DNA of 64,000 nt from Caenorhabditis elegans (taxonomy: Eukaryota > Nematoda > Chromadorea > Rhabditida > Rhabditidae). The position numbers were made by a program, and so were the translations under genes. Below, one piece after another: positions 2,908 to 59,165 of the stretch; position 1 is the stretch's first letter; every line of letters starts with the position of its first letter. The DNA lies in assembly GCF_000002985.6 (NCBI RefSeq), contig NC_003284.9, positions 8,804,001 to 8,868,000 of the forward strand, given 5' to 3'. The notes under the pieces were generated by a model, which was not told the origin of the DNA, searched no databases, and worked only from the letters and a program-made list of their open reading frames with translations.

Positions 2908-5900
2908 TTAAGAAGCAAACCAAACACTGCGTCGTTCGTTTGGAAGGATTTTGTTTTTGGTGAACGACTTTCTTGCGGTATCAGTTGGAGCAAGAACTTT
3001 TTCCTGAGCGAAAAGGATTTGATCAAGAATGTTCGACGGCCTGAAAGGGGATTATTGTTATAATTTAGCATGATAAAAATTTGGCATCTCACGTAGGCTT
3101 TGCAGGCGCAGGAGGTGGAGTGGGAACTTTATCTGCACTTGGGACCTCATCGACCACAATGACATCATCGCTGAAATAATTAAATGTTATGACATGTTTG
3201 GGGTAAGCATGATTTTGGCTTTTAGAATAAAGATTCACAAAAAAATCGGTGCTTCCCTCGACAATTATTTTTCTGTAGCAAGTATTGTAATTGTGCTTTA
3301 ATGATTAAAATTGTGTAGATAAGAGAAGACTGACGATACATAGCTCTCAAAAACGGTAAGACGTAAAAGCCGAAAATTCGTGAATTTCTTTTTCCATCAA
3401 AGAAAGGAACCCGGCCTTCATTCCGAGATGACAAACTTTTTGGTGGCAAAGGTTCTTTGGGGGCAAAGTATCCAAGGAGACAAAGGATCCAGTAGACAAA
3501 CTGGGGTGTATCTTGGGGGGCATATCTTTGGTGACAACCTTTTTTTCAACTAGATTTTTATATGTATTTTTCAACTAATTTTTGTTCAAATTTTTCTGGA
3601 ATAAGTTTTTTAATGCAATTTTCAATCGATTATCGGTTATAATTCCCTCACAATTGAATGTTTGAACGATGGTCTTTTGGGAAAAGCTGTAAAACGTCCA
3701 ACTAACTTGGAATATCGTGAGGCTCTTCCTGATGGTCTGATCCTTCAGCTCCGAAGGATCACATGGGTACCTTCTGATGTTCTGATCCTTCAGATAAGAA
3801 GGATCGTAAGGGTACCTCCTGATGGTCAATTTTTTCAAATTTTTTTTCAAATTTTGTCAAAAATCCATATGATCCGTCGAAGCTGAAGGATCAGAACATC
3901 AGGCAGAGCCTCATGTTCTTTTGGAGCTGAAGGATCAGAACATCAGGAAGAGCCTCATGATCCTTTGGATCTGAAGGATCAGACCATCAGGAGGTACCCT
4001 TACGATCCTTCTTATCTGAAGGATCAGATCATCAGAAGGTACCCATGTGATCCTTCGGATCGGAAGGATCAGAACATCAGGAAGAGCCTCGTGATCCTTT
4101 GGAGCTGAAGTATCAGACCATCAGGAGGTACCCTTACGATCCTTCTTATCTGAAGGATCAGGCCATCAGGAAGAGCCTCACGATATTCCAAGTTAGTTGG
4201 ACGTTTTACAGCTTTTCCCAAAAGACCATCGTTCATACATTCAATTGTGAGGGAATTATAACCGATAATCGATTGAAAATTGCATTAAAAAACTTATTCC
4301 AGAAAAATTTGAACAAAAATTAGTTGAAAAATACATATAAAAATCTAGTTGAAAAAAAGGTTGTCACCAAAGATATGCCCCCCAAGACACACCCCAGTTT
4401 GTCTACTGGATCCTTTGTCTCCTTGGATACTTTGCCCCCAAAGAACCTTTGCCACCAAAAAGTTTGTCATCTCGGAATGAAGGCCAAGGAACCCCGTATT
4501 CCCTGTTTTCTGATGCACTTTGTGAATACGATCTGATCATAACATTTTTTTGAAAAAAGTTGTTTAGTTAATTGAATTGGAACTTTATCAATCAGATTGA
4601 GCTTGACATTCAGACCAGGGAAGGACAGCTAATGTTTTGGCTTATTCCAAACATTGCATTTATCAGCAAGGTTTTCTGTTATTCTAATAAATTCTATATG
4701 AGAATTAAAGAAGAATTCTTGTGCAACATTCATCAAGTAACAACTTTTAAAAATTTACGTTTTTTTTTTCAAAATTCAGGATCTGATATTCAGACCTCGA
4801 ATTTTCCTAAACCCGGAAGTGATGTAATATATAATTTCAGAGCGCTTGCCACGTCACATTGAATTATAGGCTCACGAAAAGAAAAACGTCACGAAATATC
4901 GGTGTTTGAGATTGATGGATACCATTCATCATTTGCGTGCTCCCAATTTTCTGTGCGCTAAAGCTCACGTCATTTCATTTCAGGCGATTGCCTACGAATG
5001 TTAAATAAATGGTTGTGTTCCAACTCTACTATCTTCATGAATTTGTAATGAGACAGGGACTGGAGTTGTGCTGCGAAAAACAATCGCCCGCTATAAACTG
5101 AAACTGCGTATAGGTGTAAACAATTTTTTATCATCGTTTGGCTATTAACAGTCCGCAAATATTAACAATTAATTTAAATAAGCTCAAAAAGAGAGAGAAT
5201 AAAAGAGAGAGAAAATTTCTGGGTTTTTTCTCAACAAGCTCAAAGTAATACTACAAACTAAAATATTGAAACAGATATCTTGAACCGTTATTCCTTCTTT
5301 GAGCTTTTTTTTCTCAATAAACCTCAAAGAAGTTTTCTATTCGTCAGTTAAATATATTTTTCCAGGCCACCTTTTAATGTTGAAAAGGATGTATCTGCAG
5401 AAAACCTATAAGTTCGAGAGTTATGAAAAATGCAACATTGTTCACAGAAAGTCATCATACTCCGAATCACAGAAATAGAAAAATTAGTAGGCGATCAGAA
5501 TATGTGAACGCTAAGCTATGATTTTATTAGTCATATTCAAAATTAAAAAATACTGCGTAATTTTAAGCTATATTTAAACTCTTGTGGCGCTTCTTCTGAC
5601 AGCAGAATTTTAAATGCTTACAGATTAACATGATTATGTAGACATAAAAATTTCTGTAGTAATTTTATTTTCTGTATTTTGAGTGATTGTAAAAATTTGA
5701 AAACAAAAAATACATGTGACAGCAATCGAAAATAGATTCGTGCTGCTTTCCTTTTTCTCGTGAAATCAGCCGTCACGATGTAGTAATTTTTGAGTGAAAC
5801 TTCGATGAAGAATATAATTGAAGTCAATTGCAGAATATATGTATGTTTCGTAGGATTTCAGTTTTCTTTTTGACAAAAAGTTAAATTGTGCAGGAAGTTG

Positions 5901-12770: not shown

Positions 12771-14099
12771 ATGAACTTTTTAACGTGTTTCCATATATAA
12801 ACTCCATTAATTGAAATGAAAATTAATTGCATATGTTTTATATAGGCTTGTTTTATGACAGTCATCAAAAGAAACAACATTTTTAAAAAGTTACCGTATA
12901 TTCTCTATCGCTCTATAATCAAAATATTAAAAGATAAACTTTTTTGTAATATATTATGTTTAAAAAATATTTTTCAAGAGTTTTATTTAACAAAATGCTA
13001 TGTACATGTAATTTTCAAATACATTTTTTTTGAATTTTTGAATTTTTTAGTCGAACTTTAGTAAGTTTACCATTGTTGGGGCATTTGCCAAAATTTTGGC
13101 ACATTGCCAATTTTTCCAAAGTTCTTCTTGAATAATTTGAGTTTTGGCAAATGCCCCAACAATGGTAAACTTACTAAGGTTTGACTAAAAAATAAAACAT
13201 CCAAAAAATTTAAAAGTGTTAATATATTAAATATTATTCAGTAGCTTTAAACAAGTTTAGGAAAAAATTCAAAATTTTCATTTTTTTTCACATTTCTTTT
13301 CAAAATATAATTTTTTTAAACACTTAAACGTTAAGGAATTGTAATAGATTGTTATTTACTGTTTAATTTGATAATTTACACAGTTCACATCACTTACAAA
13401 ATTGTTTTATGTTTACTAGGAATGAGAAGTCAAATTGACTGACAGGTGAGTAGTAGCTGCAAGTGAGTAAAAGTGTTTAAGTTAATAAATGAAATTTCAA
13501 AGTAAATGAGCCATTCATTAGTAAACAAGCAAAAGCGAAAACATTAGTAAATGAGCGTCAAAGGAATTGAGCCATCGTTAGGGATTGAGCGTTCAAGTAA
13601 ATGATGGTTTGCCATTTTTTCATCTCTCGATTCGCGCGAATTTTCGGCATGCGAAATCGAGAAGGAGTTTTTCGCGGGATTGGCTGGATTCAAATTTGAT
13701 GTGACACTTTTAATATTTTGATAATAATTTCCAGGCTCTTAGCTACTTGCGCACTAATTTTCTATAACTAATTAATTAAGCCTCAAAATTCCTTTATAAT
13801 ACCTTACATGCCATGTGACAATTCATGAAAATTGTGTATTTTTGCTTAACAAAGTTACAAAAGTGTAATGTTAATTTGAAAACTTGTGAGAAATCAAAGA
13901 AGAGTGAACAAGCATACCATTGAAGTAATCAAATATTTTAGGAGGTTTTTGCAGCCAAAAAGAAGAGTTACACTACTAGAGACTGCCACACTAGTTTTCG
14001 AAAGGCCAGGTAGGGTGTGCACTAATAGATACGGCGCATTACTGGAGAATACACGGTGATTCCAAAACTTTTTATAGTCAACTCGTACAAAAAGTATTT
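12771..14099. other. Intergenic, repeats only
   Basis: Contains the CNNM 3' region, a hairpin element at 13043-13192, a stretch at 13440-13620 with loosely repeated AATGAGC-like words, and an AT-rich remainder. There is no coding potential on either strand. Confidence 0.6.
13043..13192. mobile_element. 150-bp hairpin element (MITE-like)
   Basis: Two arms of about 50 bp in inverted orientation contain AGTAAGTTTACCATTGTTGG then GGCATTTGCCAAAA and their complements, around a loop of about 40 bp. The outer ends read TTTAGTC(G/A)AAC(T/C)TTAGTAAG with two mismatches. It looks like a fold-back or MITE insertion. I could not define a target duplication because the flanks are A/T-rich. Confidence 0.7.
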
Positions 14100-14577: not shown

Positions 14578-14649
14578 TGCGTTCGGGGGGAATCGAACCC
14601 CCGTCGAATGCTTGGAAGGCATCCATGCTGACCATTACACCACGAACGC
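14578..14649 (-). tRNA. tRNA-Gly (UCC), copy 1
   Basis: 72 nt including the discriminator. 5' half GCGTTCGTGGTGTAATGGTC, anticodon loop CTTCCAA with anticodon UCC, T-arm GGGGGTTCGATTCCCCC, acceptor stem GCGUUCG/CGAACGC fully paired. It is the left member of a divergent pair whose spacer carries the 880-bp element at 14711-15590. Confidence 0.97.
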
Positions 14650-15680: not shown

Positions 15681-15752
15681 GAGTTCGTGGTGTAATGGTC
15701 AGCATGGATGCCTTCCAAGCATTCGACGGGGGTTCGATTCCCCCCGAACGCA
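15681..15752 (+). tRNA. tRNA-Gly (UCC), copy 2, acceptor-stem variant
   Basis: Same 72-nt gene, but it begins GAGTTCG instead of GCGTTCG while the 3' side stays CGAACGC, leaving an A2:G71 mismatch in the acceptor stem. Anticodon loop, D-arm, T-arm and internal promoter boxes are unchanged. It may still be transcribed; whether it is charged is uncertain, so it could be a decaying copy. Confidence 0.85.
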
Positions 15753-15923: not shown

Positions 15924-15995
15924 TGCGTTCGGGGGGAATCGAACCCCCGTCGAATGCTTGGAAGGCATCCATGCTGACCATTACACCACGAACGC
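15924..15995 (-). tRNA. tRNA-Gly (UCC), copy 3
   Basis: An intact 72-nt copy identical to copy 1 through all stems and the CTTCCAA anticodon loop. It sits 171 bp from copy 2 (tail to tail) and 189 bp from copy 4 (head to head). Confidence 0.97.
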
Positions 15996-16184
15996 TCGTT
16001 TCGTTTTGATGAAGTTGCAATTGATTTATCATGCTTTATTTCTCATCAATCCTAGACAGTGTAAAACAGGTTCATAGGAATAATTCAACAACCAGGTATC
16101 CTTGTGGATATCTTTCTTGTTATAATGACTGTTTCTGAAGATGAAATGAAATCTTTCCATCTGAAGATTTGATGCCTCAACTAT

Positions 16185-16256
16185 GCGTTCGTGGTGTAAT
16201 GGTCAGCATGGATGCCTTCCAAGCATTCGACGGGGGTTCGATTCCCCCCGAACGCA
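16185..16256 (+). tRNA. tRNA-Gly (UCC), copy 4
   Basis: An intact 72-nt copy identical in sequence to copies 1 and 3, divergent from copy 3. Its 3' flank (GTATATTTTAC) resembles that of copy 2 (TTATATTTTAC), so the duplicated unit included flanking DNA. Confidence 0.97.
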
Positions 16257-21491: not shown

Positions 21492-21559
21492 GTATTTTCA
21501 TATTTTCAATTATCGTATTTTCATCAATTATAAAAATATACCTTATTTTCGATACAAAC

Positions 21560-21749
21560 GTTGTTGCATATGTGCTAAATAACAAATTGCTAGTTGCAAC
21601 TTTCTTGCTATCTTGGAAGACTGTCGAGATATGATCGTGAAAACATGAGCAAAATGAGTAGCTTCTTTGATCGGCTGTGTCCCCGTTCTGTATCAAGATA
21701 GCAAGAAAGTTGCAACTAGCAATTTGTTATTTAGCATATATGCAACAAC
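21560..21749. mobile_element. 190-bp hairpin element
   Basis: Inverted arms of about 57 bp (GTTGTTGCATATGTGCTAAA ... CTTTCTTGCTATCTTG and complement) with only one or two mismatches flank a loop of about 70 bp. It is probably a fold-back MITE. The arms are close to identical, which suggests a young insertion or ongoing gene conversion. Confidence 0.75.
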
Positions 21750-22795
21750 TTTTCAGTTGACAACTTTTTTGCATTTCACTTGCCAACAGAGATGAATGTC
21801 TTCAAAGATAGGGTGTTTTCTAGCATAGATCTAGTGAGTTTTTGCCGATTTTTCGCCGGAAAAGTGCAATGAGACATCAAAAACGGTAGAATGCGACTAA
21901 CAAATGTTTTTCTACAATGTGAACCTTTTTTTAAAACTTTTTTGAAAAAAAAAACAATTTGTGAAAAAAAATCCGCATGCTCCAGGTTTGCGAATCTTCA
22001 AGTTTGAAAATCTTCAAACTGTAAAAACTTTCCAAAAATTAGAATTTGGCTGGTTTGCTATTCCAGAAGCTTAAAATCGATACGAGACTTTCTAAAAATT
22101 CATGTAACACTGTTTTTGAGCATATTTCAGGTTTTGGGAAAAATTGCAAAATTAAATTTACCCGTGTGGGAAAAGAACCACCGAAATGTGATTATTGACG
22201 TAAACGTTAACCAATCGGCCATTCAAACGGTGCTTTCAGTGCAAAACTTTTATGTAGCCTTTTCTACACGTTAAAAACAAGCTTTTCAACAGAAATAGTA
22301 CTAAATTTTCAGACGGAAATTTTCAGCCCTGTGTGACTCGCCAGCAGAAACGAAAAATAAATTATGTTAGCCAATGATCTTAGCTTCCGTTTGACCTAAA
22401 AAACTTTCAGATTGAGGCGTGCTGGTGGAAGATATTCCCTAGTAAGCTACTTTTTGAGCGGATAATCATGATTGTCATTTCTGGTTTCCTATAGCTGTGA
22501 CACGGGACATTTGACAATTTTTGAGAATTATTATAGGATTCTCATTACAAAATTTTCGGTAGGTTCCAACTCGTTTTCAATAGTTAGTTGTCCTTTAAAT
22601 CACATACAAGTGTCTCATTCATGTTGTCAAGACTTTATTTGGATGAAAATCATAAACTGGCTGTCAAATGAATAACTTATAAGAATTTAAAACAATGTTC
22701 ATTTAGTAAAAAAAAAACAGTAAAGTTGGAAAATATCATTAATTAATTTTAGATGAATGGTTATTGAATCATATAAGTAGAATATCCGTTATATT

Positions 22796-27859: not shown

Positions 27860-30800
27860 CTAAATTTCCAGGAGTTTCAACTGACGGACAATTGTGTCGA
27901 GAAGCTTCTTGCGATCTCCTTTGGCGATTCCAAAGAATCCAGTGCTTTTTCGCTCGAATTCAATCATTCTGAAAGACTTAAGCCATGTAAAATGCTTTTG
28001 TTATTGATGTTCTAATCTAATATATAAAACTGTGTTTTGTTTAATATATATAAAACTGCGTTTTGTTTGAAATATGCCCATTATACAGAGTTACCAATTG
28101 AACAAGACGGTCAGGTAAACCAATTTTTCTAACACATTGAAATACAATAGTTTATGGAGCTTGCCAGTGATACATAAACTATCAACTGAACGGTTTTGTA
28201 CTGAATCGTGCGAATCTTTATTTTATTTTAATTTAGCTGTAGAGTTATCAAGAATAAACAAATCTTTCATTCATTACATTTTTTCAAACACTTACTTTTC
28301 TAGAACAACAATGGCAGTCGATGCCTTCACTCTCAGGTATTTGGCATGATCCTTTCCGTATTCGGCATTGAACGTTGTCCAATCCGATGACATCACGAGG
28401 TCGAGCAGTTGTCTGAAACGTGTTAATGTTTTTCCATTATTGCTTCCCGTTATAACTAGCCTCAAATCTGCAAACGTCATTGACAGCGTTTGTGGATCCA
28501 CTCCAGCTACCGGGCACCTCGTGGTGAACATCTCGCATTGCATCACATCTAGAGAAAACTGATCCAGAGCTCCTGTTGAAATGCACTTGGTTTCAGGAGA
28601 CAACAAGAAATCTGACATTGATTGCGAAATGTGTTTACAAGTTTGAGTGCAAACATGCTTTGCAAGTCCTGATGGCAAATTGGTGAATGAAGTAAATGTG
28701 GTTTGAAGGAAATTTATAAGATCCGAGATGAACTCGGATGCCTGTCCGGCAGCGGCAGGCAATTCCCAGTCGTAATTTGCAAGATCAATGATTTCATCAA
28801 CTTTGCTTCGCATACACTCATCAATCTGCTGCTCGACTTCACTTCTCACGTCGCGGAACACCTTTTCAGACAGCACAACTTGATGGGAAGTAGTTCCTAT
28901 TGCCTCCTCTCCGCTAGTTTTACTGGTGATAAATGCTCCAAGTGACTCGCAGGATTTTTCCAAATATCCCAGGTTAATTGTAATTTGAACGAGTTGAATC
29001 ATAGAGAGCCGTTTGTGAACAAATGACTTCAAAACTCCAGCCCATCGTCCAAGAAGCACGTTGGCGCAACTGAAAGGAGAGAGTTGTAATAAAAACTGAG
29101 GAGAAATGAGCTTACCGGCGAACAGTGTCATCAACAGCAGAAGTATTGAGTTGAAGATTGTCCATAAACTTGAGACATCCAATCAAATAGTTTTTGGCTT
29201 GTGTATAGGCATCAGTGACAAACGGAGAGAACGGGAACCTCCGTGGGAACGGTTCCTGGAAATATTGTTTTTGATGTTTGAGAGTTTAAAATAGTTCCAA
29301 TCAATTAGATAATTTTTTGTCAGAAAAGTAGTTCAAAGACGCTTGTAAAAAAAAAGTAAAAAAAGTAAAACCTCAGGTGCTAACATTCTTCTTGTCAGCT
29401 CAAAACCCCCACTCCATAGTTTCTTTACCTACCTGCTCCATGCTTCTTTTATAAAATGGAAACTTTCTGATGATAGTTCGAAACTCTTCTTCCGAGTTGA
29501 CCGTGATCGGTGTATAATTATCCTTTTCCAAATCCCTCTCAAACTGAGCACAATATTCTTTTACCAGAATCTCATTGTACTGATCCCTGAAATGAAATTG
29601 CCATCAGGAAGTTTCATGGATCTTTTTACCAACCTGAAGTTTTGCAGAAGTTCATAGAGTGGTGCAACAGCGTAGCCGTATGATTTCATAGTAAGAATGA
29701 AGAGAAGAATTACCTTCTTCATCTTCAACATCATCAGCACATCTGGAGATCCTCCCTGAAGCTTTCAAAACATTGAAAGTTAGAAGGAGTCTTCAACTTA
29801 CGAATCTTGCATCCAAATGCTGACGAATCTTCATGAGCGCATTATCCCACAACTTATCCTTATCCACAGTTGTCGACAAATTGGATTGTGTCATCAAAAT
29901 CTGATCTTCCACGACAAAGAATCCGACGATCTCATCGAGATACTCCACATAATGCTTGAAGTTGTTCATTTTGTGAGTTGGCTCAATCACCAAGTCACAC
30001 TGCTCTTTTCTCTGTTGACGGTAATACTGCTCAAACTCCTCTTTTGCACCGAGAACATTGAAAATCTGACAGCAACGGTGAACTGGAGTGAAATCGATCA
30101 AGTCTTGAGCCGATACTTGTTCATCATCCTGAAACATGAAAAAGGTTTTGTGGGAATTATAAGGATCTCTTATTTTAGACACATTTCTAGCATAAACTAT
30201 CTCACCTCAACTTGCATTTTCATGTTTCGTTTGGGCGACATATTTTTCTTCACAATACTACCGTCAGCGGACACTTCAATCTCGACATTGCTCGCATTTC
30301 TGAAACAAAATTTTGTAAACGTTTAGTTGATAATGGAATATTCCTAGGAAATGTACATTATGGAAAAAGATGTAGTCTCTCACAATAACAATCTCTTTGC
30401 TCATTTCTTAGTATTTAGTACATTTAACTCCTTCAAACAAATCAATTTTGAAGCTTGAATCAAACAAAAATACTCACTTCCTTGCTTCTTCTTGAATTTT
30501 CTTGGCTCTTTCGGCGTCGGTGACTCCAAAGGAATGTTGCTCAGCTGTCTGAAATAACAATTTACATTAGATTCACACTCGGCAAACACCGCCAATTTTC
30601 TGCTAAATGCATTTTGGAAGATGGTTCTGCGCTAGAAATGAATTGGAAACTGCAAAACACTAAACTTGTATTAATACTTACATCCTTGCTCGCATGTTTT
30701 CCAATACGTCCAGCAACTTTCTTGATGTTCTCTAAAAAGTCTTTGAACTCGGAGTAAGCTTTTTCCTTAATCTCCAAACGAACTGGCGCCATACTTTTTG

Positions 30801-31712
30801 CAAGCACTTGTGTGAAGCGGTACTTTTCCACTAGGGCAAGATGAGTGTGTTCCAACTCTTCCAGAGTTTTCAGAGCTTGGTAGTACTTGCGATTACTCAT
30901 TTGCTCTTGAAGCTTCGCATAGTTTTCAAGTACCGGGAGGCAAACGGCGATTTGATCCATAGCTGTCTTCGCGTTTTTCATGAGCTTCCTGAAAATGTAT
31001 GTTACTTTAATAATTCTTTAGCTATGCTGGCTGTTCCTGAAATATAATAATTGTCAGAAAATGTAAAAGTCTCACCGATATCTCACGATTTCTTGCTTCT
31101 TCTGACACAAACGTTGACTAATCTGCTGAATCTCGGCGTCAATTGCCACGGTCTCTTCCTTGATATCTTGACACTGCTCTTTAAGCTTCATAAGCTCCTG
31201 CATGGCATCCACGAAGCTTTGGTAGTGGAAGGAGCACACTTTTTGAATATTCTTGTCGTAATGGCTGATTCTTTGTTGTAAAGCCCGTGCGAATGATTGC
31301 ACATCTCCGGTGTCGTAGATAGCACGTAGAACAAGGCCCATACTTCCACTGTCCGTTGTCTCCAATTCGTACAGGAAGTACTCCTGTTCAGCACTCATTT
31401 CGACGTCTGAAAATTTAAAAAATAGAGCGTAAGAAATTTATTATCGATGTTTTGAAATGAAACTCCTATCTCTTGTATTTCTTGCATGTTAAGTTTTGTA
31501 TCTACATGTGTGCATAAAATCAATACATTCACTTGTTGAATTATTCTTACTCTTCTCGCCGTAAAACGAGAAACCCCGAAAACGGATGATAATAACGGAG
31601 TACGCTGATAAGCGTCCGAAAATTCAGTTCTCAACTCACAGTTGACATAGGAAGTCGATGCTGTTTCACTTCCCGTAGTTGCCGGTTGAGAGGTACTGGA
31701 TGAGTTTGGCAT
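27860..31712 (-). CDS. sec-15: Exocyst complex subunit Sec15 (EXOC6)
   Basis: Twelve exons: 31712-31640, 31406-31076, 30988-30682, 30548-30478, 30299-30206, 30128-29802, 29755-29634, 29586-29433, 29255-29116, 29069-28461, 28412-28296, 27968-27860; 2454 nt, 817 aa, close to human EXOC6 (about 804). An N-terminal helical region (YDTGDVQSFARALQQRI) leads into the alpha-helical Sec15 C-terminal domain with the conserved stretch FADLRQLLDLVMSSDW and KYLRVKASTAIVVLEKM. Sec15 binds Rab GTPases on secretory vesicles and links them to the exocyst tether at the plasma membrane. The start follows TTTTTTCAGAAA, a likely SL acceptor. The 48-bp intron at 28460-28413 has a GC donor and no stop in frame. The symbol follows from recognised family and genome memory. 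Confidence 0.95.
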
Positions 31713-33661: not shown

Positions 33662-34187
33662 ATTTGACTTTCAAATCATTGTCTTCCATTGTACATTGAA
33701 TACCGTTCCTTGTTTCAGAACAGTTTTATTTTTGCTACGAACCAAATTTTTTAGAAGGCCCCACTCTTTTTGAACAAAAAACAACAATGGAAAAACTATT
33801 TCTGAAAAGCTCATAGTCCCTCGATATTCTTTTAGCCTTTCAAATAAAATTATGTGAAAATTTATTACACGCACAATAATTGATTTTTTTTTTGGATAAT
33901 TGAATTTTTTCCTCAAAATAAAAGTTTTCCAGAGTGTTCTTATCAAATCTGGAAACAAAAACGCCAACTTATTCAATCAACCAACGTTTGAAGAAGATAA
34001 TTTTTCATTTGTTTTGATATTTTCATTATTACAATTACTGTTTGTTTTGAAGTTCTAATGGCTTTGTAACAATGATATAATACTTTTCTAACAGTTCTTA
34101 TTGTTATAAAGAAAAAAAAAGAAAAGTATATGTGATTATACTGGATACGCCATCTTTGTGAGAATGTGTGAGAAGTTGAAACGAATA
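33662..34187. other. Intergenic, 3' of the serpin-like gene
   Basis: AT-rich; no gene, RNA or clear repeat seen before the MITE at 34188. Confidence 0.5.
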
Positions 34188-34303
34188 TACTGTATTTCCT
34201 ATATTAGTGAGGCATGCAATACTTATTTTCAAGCACCTATTTAGAAGCAATACTAATAGAGGTGCACTAATAGAGACGCCTTACTTATAGTGGAAATACT
34301 GTA
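34188..34303. mobile_element. 116-bp TACTGTATTTCC MITE
   Basis: Starts TACTGTATTTCCTATATTAG and ends ACTTATAGTGGAAATACTGTA, so the ends are inverted repeats of about 20 bp with TA at both borders (a TA target duplication is possible). A compact member of the family also seen at 22.9, 37.8 and 39.0 kb. It lies 34 bp from tRNA-Gly copy 5. Confidence 0.85.
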
Positions 34304-34337
34304 TTAACTTCCAATTTGGAACATCAAAAAAGTTTCT

Positions 34338-34409
34338 TGCGTTCGGGGGGAATCGAACCCCCGTCGAATGCTTGGAAGGCATCCATGCTGACCATTACAC
34401 CACGAACGC
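34338..34409 (-). tRNA. tRNA-Gly (UCC), copy 5
   Basis: An intact 72-nt copy with fully paired acceptor, anticodon and T stems and anticodon UCC. It is the left member of a divergent pair; the right member (from 34602) is split by a 4.3-kb insertion. Confidence 0.97.
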
Positions 34410-34929
34410 ACGATGAAGCTTCTTTAAACTTGCAATGAAAACTCAAAATGATCGGAATCCCTCGACAGGAGGTTTTAATCCGGTTTCCATTTGCGCGCAT
34501 TCTCGAAATTAATATATTTCCCAATCGATGTACACACACACTTACTTGATAATTAATTGGTCCTTAACATTTTCATAGTTTATCTTCTTGATGAATCATG
34601 TGCGTTCGTGGTGTAATGGTCAGCATGGATGCCTTCCAAGCATTCGACCACAGGTGATTCGCAGTGTAAGCAAAATGCTTCGACGCACACAATGCTCGTG
34701 TTTGCGAAAATGTGCGCCACAGTGGCAAGCATAAAGGGCACAATGCGAACGCTCGCAATGTGCGCATTTTGTTTGGCCGTTATTCCCATCATTAAAGTGC
34801 TCATTTCAGTTAGTTTAAAGCCATTTTTGTTTGAGTTCTCTGTTTATTGACTGTTTTTTTGCTGATACTAAAGTTTCTGAAAAACAAAACTCTCGATTTA
34901 GAAGGAACTTGTCAGATTTCGAAAATCAT

Positions 34930-36924
34930 AAGGGTCCCCCCTTATGATATAAAATTTTTGATGAAATTTTTTTGTTTTGAAAATTTTTTCGAAAACATGT
35001 TGAACGTGTAGAAAATGATCAGTTTGATATTTTATACAAGTGTGAGAGTTCACAATGAATGTTCAGCCAAGAAATCATGGAAAGTCTAGAGTTGGGTCAT
35101 TGAAACATAGTATGTTTGAGAGCTCCTAACTTCCTTGAGACGTAAAATACAAAACTTTCTTCAACTGAAAAGTTGTCAGAAATGAACTGAACAACGAGTT
35201 ATTAGTTGGCAATATTTTTCTATCTTGCATGTTCAAGAAGTGGGCACAGTTGAGTAAGAGCAAAACAGCACTGACTTCAACAAGCCATATTTTGGCACAT
35301 TACACATATAGGAAACATTTTTTATTTTTAAGACATTTTCCATAACAAGCTAAACAAATTTGTAGTTGATCGTTTTTTGATATCTTGTATGTCCAAGGAT
35401 GCTCACAGCTTCAAAAACCTATACTATTTTTTGAGCCCTTCAAGAAATAGTCATTTTCTCAGCTAAAAACTTTCTTTCTAACGTTTAAATTGACACAAAT
35501 AGAGTAAATATCATTTACTACTGTATCTGATGATCCGCTTTGAAAATCATAAGGGTCCCCCCTTATGAAATTTTTTTTTCGTGGAAACTTTTTTCCAAAA
35601 AAATTTTGATTATGTTTAATTTTGTGCAAAAACATTATTTCAGCATGTTTCACAGTTTTAACGTCTCAATAACGTTTTTGTGGCAAAAAATATTGAAATC
35701 TTCCTGGATTTTTCAAATAAACACCTTACTTGTAATACAGTTTTTCTCCGTTGGCAGCAGGAATACAAAAAAGTTGCCAACTTGAAAATTGTTTACAATG
35801 AAATGAATAACAAATTTTTAATTGACACTTTTCTCCTATCTCGCATTGCTTCAAAGTTATAGTCCTCTCGTTTTGAGCCCAATATTACTGATTTTCAGTA
35901 ATCATATCTAAATAATGAACAAAGATAAAACGTTTATGTTTTATAATTGTGATAGATCATTTCAAGTTTAATAATTAAATAATTGATCGCTTTTTGATAT
36001 CTTTCTATCCTGAAAAGATGTACATCTTAGACGAAATGATGTATATGGTTGAAGAGTTCAAGAAATTGAGGCTTTTCTCGTTGGAAACGCCTAGTTTGAC
36101 GTTGAAATTTTTATAAATAATCACTTTTGTACTTTTCTCAATATTTCAAAGTTGTTACAACTTTTTCAAAAAAAAATTTTTCGAGAATTTTTGATTTTTT
36201 TTTGTTGCAAAAATTGAAAAAAAAACCAAAGGGTCCCCCCTTATGAAAATTTTCAAAAATTTTTACGAAAATTTTTTTTGAAAACTTTTCAAAATACGAT
36301 CAGATCTTTCAGAAAAATGCGATGTTGGTTGTTTTTTTCAGTTTGAATATTCAGAACACGATTTCAGACGAACACGTGAGGCTTAGTAGAACCTCTAAGT
36401 TCAAAAAAGGCATTCACTTCGAATGCTTATATCTCCGTGGAAAAAATTATTATGACAAAGTGATCAACTACAAAGTTGTTTATCTTAAATCAAAGTACAA
36501 CTTTGTAGTTGATCGTTTTTTATCAAAAAATTTGGTGGTGGAGATATAAAGAGAGAAAGAGAAAGAAAATACAAGCATGAAGTTACGGCACTTCTCACAA
36601 CTTTATCTCAACCACCAATTTTTTTGATAAAAAATGATCAACTTCAAAGTTGTACTTTTAATTAAGATAAACAACTTTGTAGTTGATCATTTTGCCATAA
36701 AAATTTTTTCCACGACGATATAAGCATCCAAAGTGAATGCGATTTTTGAACATAAGAGTTCTACTATACCTCCGGTTTTTGTCTCAGCTTGTGTGCTGAA
36801 CATCCAAACTAAAAAAAAACAACAAACATTGCAATTTTCTATAACATCTAATAAAAATTTGAGAAGTTTTCAAAAAAAAAATTTCGAAAAAATTTTTGAA
36901 AATTTTCATAAGGGGGGACCCTTT
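34930..36924. repeat. Dispersed motif AAGGGTCCCCCCTTATGA, four copies
   Basis: Copies at about 34930-34947, 35551-35568 and 36230-36245 (start truncated) in direct orientation, and about 36901-36920 inverted. The core is itself near-palindromic (TCATAAGGG opposite CCCTTATGA) and stands out as GC-rich in AT-rich element DNA. Copies sit next to long A/T tracts (AAATTTTTT). Confidence 0.8.
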
Positions 36925-36930
36925 GGATTT
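36180..36930. repeat. 0.75-kb palindrome within the 4.3-kb element
   Basis: Arms from about 36180 to 36540 and 36600 to 36930 are inverted copies. Matching parts include GGGTCCCCCCTTATGAAAAT, GATATAAGC/GCTTATATC, GATAAACAACTTTGTAGTTG and ACCACCAATTTTTTTGAT with complements. The arms are diverged at scattered positions. The centre lies near 36.57 kb. Probably an older fold-back element inside the larger insertion. Confidence 0.8.
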
Positions 36931-37809
36931 TTTTTTCGAAAAAAGCTAAAAAAAAATTTTCCAAAAATTATCAAATATGTATGAGATATTGTAGAAATAT
37001 GTTTACTTTGTTGTTTCTAAGCATTTTCTTGCAAAATTCGGTGCTTTTCCATGAGTCAAAACGGAATTCTTTGGGACACTGAACAATAAAACCTCCTGTC
37101 TTAAAAAGGATGTATCTCATTTTAGAGGCGAGGTATCAAAAAGTCATAGTTGTAAGCATTTTCTCACCTTTATCGAGAACTGAGATATAGTTGAGAACAG
37201 ATCTATAATTTTTTGGTCGTCTTTCGGAGCTCACATCTCCGCAGTCACTGAAGATAACTAAAACGTACCAAGTAACAAAATGTTTTCCATATTATTGTCA
37301 ACAACTTTTTAGTTGACCACATTTTATCAATTTAAACGCCAACAGAGTTATAAGTCTTTGAAAGTAAGATGTCTATTTGCTCATTCAATTCTAATTTAAG
37401 TCATTGTTTAACTCAAAATGGAACATAAGAGTCCAAACTTGTAAGAACTACCAAAATTGTGTTTTTTTTATAAAGTTGAACAGTTTTTGAAAAAAAAATT
37501 CCAAAAAAAATTGTTTTCAACCATAATTTTTTTCAACCCTTATGATCAAAATCGGAAGATCGGAGAAATCAGATTATAAGAGGGCCCTTATCCCTTACGA
37601 GCCTTCTGAGCTGAATATTGAGATCGTAAGTCAGAATAATCAGATCATAAGGATGAGCCTTATAGTATTCCAATATAGTAGGACATTTCACAGCCTTTTC
37701 CCAAAAAAACATTGGTAATACATTCAATTGTGAGTGAATTCGAAATTCCGTTAAAAATTGCATTTAAAAAGTTGTGGAATATGAACACAAATTAGTTGAA
37801 AAATACATG

Positions 37810-38264
37810 CCGTATTACCTCTATTAGTAAGGCGTGCAAAACTAATTTTCGGACACCTAATTTGATGCAAAACTAATAGAGGGTGCAAAACTAACTTTCG
37901 AACAGGTTTTTTCTCATGTTTGCCAATAAGTTATGACATAATATCATCAATTTCAATGACAACTTATGAACCAAAATGGACGAATTTTACGACTGATACG
38001 CAAACATTGTCCGAATTGTACTCATATTTTGCCAATTTTGACTTGTTATACCAAGTCTGTAAGAGTTTTCCTAATTTTTAGAACGACTTTATAATGCAAA
38101 TTTTGAATTCCTAAAATTAAGGAACAAATAAAGGGGTGCAAAACTATTAGAGGTGCAAAACTAATAGAGGGTGCAAAACTAACTTTCGATTAGTGATTTT
38201 AGATGCAAAATTAATGGAGGTTCAAAACTAATAGAGGTGCCTAACTAATAGTGGAAATACGGTA
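37810..38264. mobile_element. MITE nested in the 4.3-kb element
   Basis: Left end CCGTATTACCTCTATTAGTA and right end TAGTGGAAATACGG are family ends, and GGTGCAAAACTAATAGAGG-like words repeat inside. It interrupts a segment homologous to the right arm of the 3.4-4.5 kb palindrome: homology to that arm stops at ATACAT (about 37807) and resumes at CTAGTTG (about 38266). Confidence 0.8.
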
Positions 38265-38968
38265 TCTAGTTGAACTAGTTGAAAAAAAGTTGTCACCATT
38301 GATCCTAGCCCCACCAAGGTACACCCCACTTTGTCACTTTGGATACTTTGTCTCCAAAGATCTTTGCAAAGATCCTTTGTCACAGGCGGTTTTTGCAAAG
38401 TGGGAGAAGACTCGGCCACTAGCATAGCATGAAAACGGATCATTTTCTTGAAAACCTGGTACGGTGGATCGCCTTGAGAACAATTTTAGATAATTTTGGG
38501 TCAGTTATCAGAATGATGGAACTAGATGCGCGAGATAACTAGCAGTGAGATGCCCTAGATCACTACTTAAATCGATTTGCAACTAACGAACGTGCGCGCG
38601 GGATTGGTCAACAGTAAACTTTCAGAACTCGAAGAAACAGGTAAGTGGTTCGACTCCGGATGGTAACAGAAAATCCTTTCCAAGTCTTGAGGTGGCTTAA
38701 TCATGTCTTCGGGTAGTGGGGGTGGCTTATACAAGAACTGAAGTTATATTTTGAACTTTTTCAGCTGATATAAGTGAAAAAAGGAAGCATAAATTGTTTT
38801 CGCAATGCCTCCTTTATGCTCGCGTTCGTTCGCAAAGACGAGCATTTTTCTCCATTTTTGCTCATGTTTTCAAGTACCCATTCGAAGCACGCGCGAACTT
38901 CGGATGAAGCATAAAACTCGTACTCGCGAATCACCTGTGCGACGGGGGTTCGATTCCCCCCGAACGCA

Positions 38969-40293
38969 GTAAATCTTTTGAGTTTAATAAATTTATATAC
39001 ACCGTATTTCCTCTGTTAGTATTGCACGTAAAATTAGTTTTTATTCGGACCATTGGCTGCGAGACTATTTTTTGAATGTTCAATAACGAGAAAAAACTCC
39101 ATTATTAAAATTTATAATAAGACAAGAAACTTAATTGGCTTTTCATAACGAACTGTTCATTTTTTAATCTTAGAAATTCTAGTTCGTTAGAATGTTTTTT
39201 TTTCAAGCATTTTGTTTTCATTGATTTTTTGATTGAATTCCTACTCCTTTCAAAAAATTATGAAATAAGCTGCATATTTAATTTTTGTTCTATCAAACTT
39301 ATTTTTTTAAATGAGAAATCAATACTAACAATTATTCGTTGTGAAATATGTTCCTTACGTCGCGTCACAAAAAGCAGTGGAGAATGAGAGAAACAGAGTA
39401 CAATGTTCAGTTTCAAAACTCAGCTAGTCAAATTTGAAAGGTTTCTTTTTTTTGCTTTTTGTACGTGTTTTTCATTCATCTTTTAAAACCTAGGAATTAA
39501 TTTTTTTTGAAGAATAAAAAAGTAAACAACCAGTCAACATTTGTTTTGAAACAAATCGTTTTTGCGATAATTATTGCGAAATAACTAACTATACTTGCAA
39601 TAAGATTTGGCCTAACCACTCATTTTTCCAAATAATTTAAGTAATTATTTTATTTTTAGGATGAAAAACTTGAAGCCAATAAAACGTCGGATATTTATGT
39701 ATTGTTGTGAATTTAGTTCCAGATAGAACCTAGATTTTTTCAGAGATTAAAAATTTCGCCATAATAACGGGGTTTCAAACATATATTCTTGAACTACCAA
39801 CTGATAGCCTCTAATAGTCTTGCTGTATTTCATATCAGTTCAAAATAGTCGTGCATTCCGAATTTGAGTTGTTTATGTACTTTTATTGATGCTACAGTAT
39901 ATCTAATCTTATTTTTCTACAACTTCACAGGAGGGCGCAATTATGCAATATGGTCTTGCCACTCGTTGATTTTAAAACATTTTATTTTATTCCATGGGTG
40001 GCGCGTGGCGATACCATTTCGCATAAATGCACCCTCCTTTGAAGTCGTAGAGGAAAAAATACACTGTGTATAACCAAACAATATTTGCAGTTTATTTGCT
40101 TTTAGACACTGATAACAAACCCTTGAGAGTCTTTTCGGTTTACCAATAAAGAACATTTCTTGCTAATTGTAAATATTTTATCGATATAACCCATCATCAA
40201 CAATTATCCTAGTTACATTATTTTTCAATATTTCAACACATTTGTTCATCAGGCTCTTTTGCCCATTCTCTAAATTTGATTTTTCAGCTAAAA
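38969..40293. other. Intergenic with a MITE end at about 39000
   Basis: Starts with CACCGTATTTCCTCTGTTAGTA, the left end of the TACCGTATTTCC family; no convincing matching right end was found. The rest is AT-rich. No gene is supported before the UBA-UAS gene. Confidence 0.55.
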
Positions 40294-42504: not shown

Positions 42505-42577
42505 TGCGTTCGGGGGGGAATCGAACCCCCGTCGAATGCTTGGAAGGCATCCATGCTGACCATTACACCACGAACGC
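42505..42577 (-). tRNA. tRNA-Gly (UCC), copy 7, one-base insertion
   Basis: Matches the other copies except for an extra C between the T-stem and the acceptor stem (seven G in the plus-strand run instead of six), giving 73 nt. This disturbs the T-arm/acceptor stacking, so it may be a pseudogene. Anticodon UCC and both internal promoter boxes are intact. Confidence 0.85.
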
Positions 42578-42720
42578 GCATGATTGACTTTTCAGTGGAT
42601 AAATGAAAATCTTCCAAAACCGTTAAATTTGAAGAAACTTGATTTTGGGTGATTAGCATCGTCTCCATATGTAGGCCAGCTTTTCGGAAGATGATTAACA
42701 GAAGCCTAGTCAGATGATGT

Positions 42721-42792
42721 GCGTTCGTGGTGTAATGGTCAGCATGGATGCCTTCCAAGCATTCGACGGGGGTTCGATTCCCCTCGAACGCA
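42721..42792 (+). tRNA. tRNA-Gly (UCC), copy 8
   Basis: 72 nt with one change from the consensus: the last T-stem base is T instead of C (CCCCT), leaving a G49-U65 wobble. All other stems pair. It diverges from copy 7 with a 143-bp spacer. Probably functional. Confidence 0.93.
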
Positions 42793-58523: not shown

Positions 58524-59165
58524 TTAAAGGTGGAGTAGTGCTAGTGGGGAAATTGCTTTAAAACATGCCTATGGTACCACAATGACCGAATATCATGATA
58601 AAAAAATTCAAAAAAATTTTCTAAATTTTATATGATTTTTTGAAAATGGAACAATCTCAGTTTTTGCCTAATTCCTATTTGAATTACCGCCAATTGGATT
58701 TGTTCGATGGAGCGCGCTTGCACGTTTTTTAAATTTATTTATTTTATTTTTTGTTATTTTCAACCAATTTTAAATGTTTTCGGTGTATTTCAGGTTCGAA
58801 ATCGTTTAAAATCGTCACTTTGTCATTTTTACGCCTGTAAGCGTGCTTTCTAATCGAAAATTTGTATTTATCTTGACTTTTTCTCTAAAATTCAAGCAAA
58901 AATACACCGAAAACATTAAAAATCGGTGGAAAATAACAAAAAATAAAAAAATACATTTAAAAACGTGCAAGCGCGCTCCATCGAACAAATCCAATTGGCG
59001 GTAATTCAAATAGTAATTAGGCAAAAACTGAGATTTTTTCAATTTTCAAAAAATTACATAAAATTTAGAAAAATGTTTTGAATTTTTTTATCATGATATT
59101 CGGTCATTGTGGTACCATAGGCATGTTTTAAAGCAATTTCCCCACTAGCGCTACTCCACCTTTAA
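58524..59165. mobile_element. 642-bp palindromic element
   Basis: Begins TTAAAGGTGGAGTAGTGCTA and ends with the complement (TAGCGCTACTCCACCTTTAA). The inverted match runs through almost the whole length with few mismatches (TGCCTATGGTACCACAATGA, GCGCGCTTGCACGTTTTTAA, CGGTGTATTT and complements) to a centre near 58845. No coding capacity. This is a repetitive worm palindrome family; two decayed relatives lie at 17.9 and 52.6 kb. It sits between the two inverted peptide genes. Confidence 0.9.

Follow-up and report, generated by a model that had tools for sequence, protein, structure and literature searches.

A tRNA-Gly(UCC) gene of Caenorhabditis elegans is broken at 34648/34649 and continues from 38940, and what separates its two parts is, beyond reasonable doubt, a transposon-like element that inserted into the gene. 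The insert is 4,291 bp long (34649-38939); all positions refer to the window, i.e. the whole stretch of 64,000 nucleotides that was analysed. We consider it probable that this is a non-autonomous cut-and-paste DNA transposon, best placed in the Chapaev branch of the CMC superfamily, which landed in one of the several copies of a tRNA-Gly(UCC) gene. The least secure part of this explanation is the superfamily, which would be assigned from three terminal bases and the length of the target-site duplication.

The split gene and its junctions

The 5' part of the gene (34602-34648, plus strand) is 47 nt long, contains the anticodon and runs through the variable loop. It equals the corresponding part of six of the seven intact paralogues in the window, the seventh differing by C2A, and presumably keeps the A box (within 34602-34648), going by the motif as we know it. 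The last four bases of this part, CGAC (34645-34648, plus strand), make up the entire 4-nt variable loop, which in our own tRNA numbering connects the anticodon stem with the T stem and closely precedes the Pol III B box. The same four bases recur on the other side of the insert (38940-38943, plus strand), where they are followed by the 3' part of the gene (38944-38968, plus strand), comprising the T arm and the B box GGTTCGATTCC (38947-38957), with three bases between the right-hand CGAC and the box. The intact paralogues, which have a single CGAC at this site, serve as empty sites and set the length of the duplication at 4 bp. It cannot be extended in either direction: outward, a T on the left is opposed to the insert's G on the right, and inward, the insert's C on the left to a G on the right.

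Once the insert and one copy of CGAC are taken out, the joined sequence is 72 nt long and identical, by sequence comparison, to four of the seven intact tRNA-Gly(UCC) genes (14578-14649, 15924-15995 and 34338-34409 on the minus strand, 16185-16256 on the plus strand). The remaining three are variants of the common sequence, with C2A (15681-15752), C64T (42721-42792) or a 1-nt insertion (42505-42577). This bears out what a sequence-only reading had claimed, namely that the gene was cut by a 4.3-kb insert, its parts being 34602-34648 and 38940-38968, and that it is exactly restored by removal of the insert and one CGAC. Once joined, the two halves are recognised by ARAGORN as tRNA-Gly(tcc); alone, neither gives a tRNA. 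Rfam, run at a lax threshold (E up to 5), returned 12 matches; among these, the left half scored 23.9 bits as a tRNA (cut-off 29), and the T arm in the right half scored 18.5 bits as a tmRNA (cut-off 47).

The A box and B box of the split gene are now 4.3 kb apart, and this copy is therefore almost certainly dead. One may also consider that it is a functional split tRNA gene, or one with a long intron, in keeping with the lack of mutations in both halves. The insert, however, has transposon-type ends and a target duplication, it separates the promoter boxes, and it occupies the variable loop, whereas tRNA introns usually lie beside the anticodon; we therefore give this alternative hardly any credence. 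Repeats and multicopy tRNA genes are easily misjoined in an assembly, but a misjoin is unlikely to leave both breakpoints precisely marked by paired 14-bp inverted repeats and a duplication of 4 bp, which makes an assembly artefact just as hard to believe in.

Ends, coding capacity and superfamily

The insert is bounded by terminal inverted repeats of 14 bp, CACAGGTGATTCGC at 34649-34662 (plus strand) and the same sequence inverted at 38926-38939 (minus strand). The two agree at 14 of 14 positions, as had been claimed together with the 4-bp duplication; base 15 is mismatched (A vs G), and the repeats cannot grow outward, the flanking base being C at both ends. From base composition, two given points would have a chance of about 2e-8 of showing 14 complementary bases in a row. 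When up to three mismatches are allowed the 14-mer is found at three places in the window, namely both ends and a site with three mismatches, against 2.7 expected by chance, so that only the two exact copies count. Past base 14 the ends have motifs in common without forming a continuous repeat: the left subterminal region (34663-34828, plus strand), which is GC-richer than the rest, shares motifs such as ATGCTCGTNTTTGCGAA and AGCATAAAGG with the right one (38760-38925, minus strand). Their local alignment score of 53 compares with 26.8 +/- 5.2 for shuffled sequences, none of 1000 shuffles reaching 53, and the contrast is weaker against random pairs of 200-bp segments of the window (a score of 56 vs 31.6 +/- 9.4, largest 104). 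No second copy of either end was found within the window, only stray short matches of 13-18 bases. In scans of collections that are not of nematode genomes, and so carry little weight, the 14-mer plus four loose bases matched seven viral contigs once each, which we take as chance, and the left junction (tRNA plus CAC) matched no contig.

The longest stop-to-stop frame in the insert is 100 aa. There are 35 such frames of at least 50 aa overlapping 34600-39000, and Pfam was run on 10 of the 11 longest (a 68-aa one was omitted). In these 10 of 35 frames no transposase or other coding sequence was recognised: none gave a match above the curated cut-off, seven had no match at E 0.1, and the sub-cut-off matches of the other three (DUF7863, ZUO1-like and zf-C2HC5) were taken as chance. 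Of 10 frames searched elsewhere in the window, two scored above cut-off, both of them parts of Sec15 (minus strand, 28295-31017), which has a relative of solved structure. The earlier statement that no transposase frame is visible thus agrees with what the searched frames contain. Its corollary was that the element must have been mobilised in trans; this is likely, but "must" is too strong, since an interior with coding sequence may have disappeared or been exchanged for other DNA.

Which superfamily could have supplied the transposase? Published descriptions give 5'-CAC...GTG-3' ends and a 3- to 4-bp target-site duplication as the hallmarks of Chapaev (CMC), and mostly CA..TG ends with 2-5-bp duplications for the wider CMCT clade (PMC12730594). 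The insert has CACAGGTGATTCGC, inverted, at its two ends, i.e. CAC...GTG, and CGAC on each side where the intact paralogues have one, a duplication within the 3-4 bp of Chapaev. An autonomous family, Chapaev-2, is described in C. elegans itself, where it is reported to be de-repressed in rpb-9, prg-1 and hrde-1 mutants and not in prde-1 (PMC7917558); a source of the transposase within the genus is therefore plausible. The insert resembles Chapaev in the published hallmarks of that group, the CAC...GTG ends and the 4-bp duplication, and differs from it in that no transposase was recognised in the 10 of 35 frames. For non-autonomous elements the Repbase rule asks for an equal duplication length and for terminal positions 1-11 that align with at most one mismatch.

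Some points weigh against this placement. Neither a transposase nor a second copy or relative turned up in the frames and the window that were searched. Members of Chapaev3 use TWA sites, whereas the site here is CGAC, and plant CACTA elements end in CACTA or CACTG, whereas the insert ends in CACAG. Ginger was considered and rejected, having 5'-TG...CA-3' ends and repeats of 40-270 bp, as opposed to the CA...TG ends and 14-bp repeats seen here. It is also conceivable, if rather unlikely, that the same insertion event was the work of another superfamily with 4-bp duplications, such as Sola. Sola elements are described as having 4-bp duplications, widely varying ends and repeats from 11 bp up (PMC10741241), and the insert would fit the duplication length of this group, which combines 4-bp duplications with a DDD transposase. 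The CAC...GTG ends nevertheless fit CMC without strain, and C. elegans is known from the paper cited above to have a Chapaev family; this last comparison is uneven, as the nematode literature was consulted on the Chapaev side only.

The interior and its age

The interior of the element is a patchwork in which diverged units of about 620 bp surround an 800-bp hairpin and are followed by a split fragment of another repeat. The units occupy 34918-37550; they measure about 620-680 bp, the central ones being shorter, are mostly about 60% alike, and point one way on the left of a centre near 36577 and the other way on its right. Two of them, of about 620 and 680 bp (34918-36216, plus strand), are 61% identical to each other, and a further, inverted unit (36936-37550, minus strand) is 58-62% identical to those on the left side. 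Between them is a long palindrome (36180-36975; BLAST identity 81% over 804 columns), whose arms (36217-36577 and 36578-36935) are 84% alike. The central 796 nt can fold as a single hairpin of -375 kcal/mol, compared with -144 +/- 8 for 20 shuffles (z -28). If transcribed, this hairpin of about 800 nt (36180-36975) could give small RNAs. Several microRNA families in Rfam match the palindrome, the best being MIR821 (95.6 bits, cut-off 249, E 2e-17); all these matches are below the cut-offs, and we ascribe them to an effect of long hairpins. The long palindromic repeats of C. elegans that Repbase names LONGPAL1 and LONGPAL3 are comparable as far as name and shape go. Within the window, a palindromic repeat at 21556-21818 is related to the palindrome of the insert, and other inverted repeats, self-complementary at 73-94%, are found at 3413-4485, 21556-21753, 13026-13208 and 58524-59165.

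To the right of the units lies a fragment (37631-38383, plus strand) of the repeat that is also found at 3413-4485, which it matches at 76-79% overall (37631-37808 against 4149-4336 at 76%, and 38275-38383 against 4345-4455 at 78%). It is split by a smaller nested element with CCGTATT-type inverted ends (37810-38262), which is flanked by TG on the left and TA on the right; judging from these bases we read the flanks as a degenerate TA duplication. From the outside inwards, the order of nesting is the tRNA gene, the element with CACAGG ends, the older repeat and the smaller element. Relatives of the nested element also occur at 34174-34304 and 38996-39027, one on each side of the split tRNA gene and at most about 430 bp from it.

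How does the age of this interior compare with that of the insertion? In the 76 tRNA-derived bases (47 + 29) there are no changes, as had been noted before, which limits divergence since insertion to at most 3.9% (95%), while the palindrome arms differ by about 16%. If the arms had been identical at the time of insertion, each would have changed by about 8%, and about six changes would be expected in the 76 bases; by our arithmetic the probability of seeing none is about 0.002, assuming equal rates and no gene conversion from sister genes. The interior is thus most likely older than the landing of the element, to judge from the unchanged 76 bases set against the divergence of the arms. Gene conversion with the sister genes could be an alternative reason for the clean tRNA halves. 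The claim of a recent insertion with an old interior therefore holds in the relative sense (no changes in 76 bases, about 16% between the arms) and not in the absolute one: 3.9% is a loose bound, and "recent" can be taken to mean younger than the interior.

Returning to the CMC-type element that we favour, one can suggest the following course of events. A transposase made elsewhere in the genome would have bound the 14-bp ends and the subterminal motifs, and the target would have been cut with a 4-bp stagger across the CGAC of the variable loop, so that gap repair would leave two copies of CGAC. The old, repeat-filled interior was most likely already aboard at arrival. One tRNA copy would have been lost in this way, leaving seven intact tRNA-Gly(UCC) copies in the window. 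The split, the repeats, the duplication and the empty sites in the paralogues are observed, as is the lack of recognised coding sequence in the frames searched; what we infer, besides the superfamily, is that the transposase came in trans, that the interior is the older part and that the tRNA copy is lost.

The tRNA gene as insertion site

The window contains nine intact tRNA genes, found by ARAGORN and also by Rfam (seven tRNA-Gly(UCC), one Cys and one Glu), and thus, with the split one included, eight tRNA-Gly(UCC) loci. Six of these form close head-to-head pairs (15924-16256, 34338-34648 and 42505-42792, with gaps of 189, 192 and 143 bp), the split gene being one partner of the pair at 34338-34648, and the spacers of the three pairs have little or no mutual similarity. 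The genes at 14578 and 15681 are also divergent, as a fourth pair, and have 1,031 bp between them.

Insertion into a multicopy RNA gene, here a single insertion in one of eight tRNA-Gly(UCC) loci of the window, brings to mind the Dada superfamily, whose elements are described as entering multicopy small-RNA genes, in some species including tRNA-Gly. However, the Dada literature consulted gives duplications of 6-7 bp and reports that terminal inverted repeats were not found in Dada-U6 and Dada-U1 (PMC3706591), as opposed to the 4 bp and the perfect 14-bp repeats of the insert, and for these two reasons we do not file it under Dada; membership of that superfamily proper is very improbable. The position within the gene differs as well: several Dada lineages share a common site at tRNA nucleotides 8-13 and others target the anticodon stem (PMC8869645), whereas the insert lies in the variable loop.

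A different proposition is that the element belongs to a family outside Dada, of CMC type, that has evolved a Dada-like preference for tRNA genes, with TFIIIC or the conserved B-box sequence perhaps directing its cut to the variable loop next to the B box. The exact coincidence of the duplication with the variable loop next to the B box would agree with such a habit, as would the precedent of the Dada sites, and so would a B-box match with weak similarity to tRNA-Gly inside the element near its right end. Against this, one insertion cannot reveal a preference for tRNA genes, the ends of the element are absent from all nine intact tRNA genes in the window, although nine is a small number, and Rfam, even at E values up to 5, finds nothing in the tRNA-like stretch inside the element. 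We therefore regard a tRNA-directed family as improbable.

The internal stretch itself (38585-38660, on the same strand as the host tRNA) may be a tRNA fossil. Its B-box match GGTTCGACTCC (38647-38657) is one of 10 in the window, the others being eight in intact tRNAs and one in the right half of the split gene, with 0.18 expected by chance. Local alignment scores of 38585-38660 to tRNA-Gly, -Cys and -Glu exceed those of mononucleotide shuffles, and when the B box is left out the similarity to tRNA-Gly is in the top 1.1% of window segments, with none for Cys or Glu. ARAGORN makes a call here only at lowered stringency, as a tRNA-Asn on the opposite strand.

As target-specific eukaryotic DNA transposons, the literature consulted names Dada and, with looser specificity, Pokey in rDNA, and none of the matches listed from the Caenorhabditis and nematode literature (titles and abstract openings) concerned a CMC-type element in a nematode tRNA gene. 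The event itself, a non-autonomous cut-and-paste element entering one copy of a multicopy gene, is ordinary. The case is of modest interest for its clean signature, its nested passenger and a possible tRNA-directed family: a multicopy tRNA gene has had one of its copies cleanly disrupted by a natural event, with every junction readable, and the passenger is large and repeat-filled, has a second element nested inside, and was probably moved by a transposase not its own. It would matter more if the family favoured tRNA genes, since target specificity would then have arisen apart from Dada, in a lineage that uses another part of the tRNA gene.
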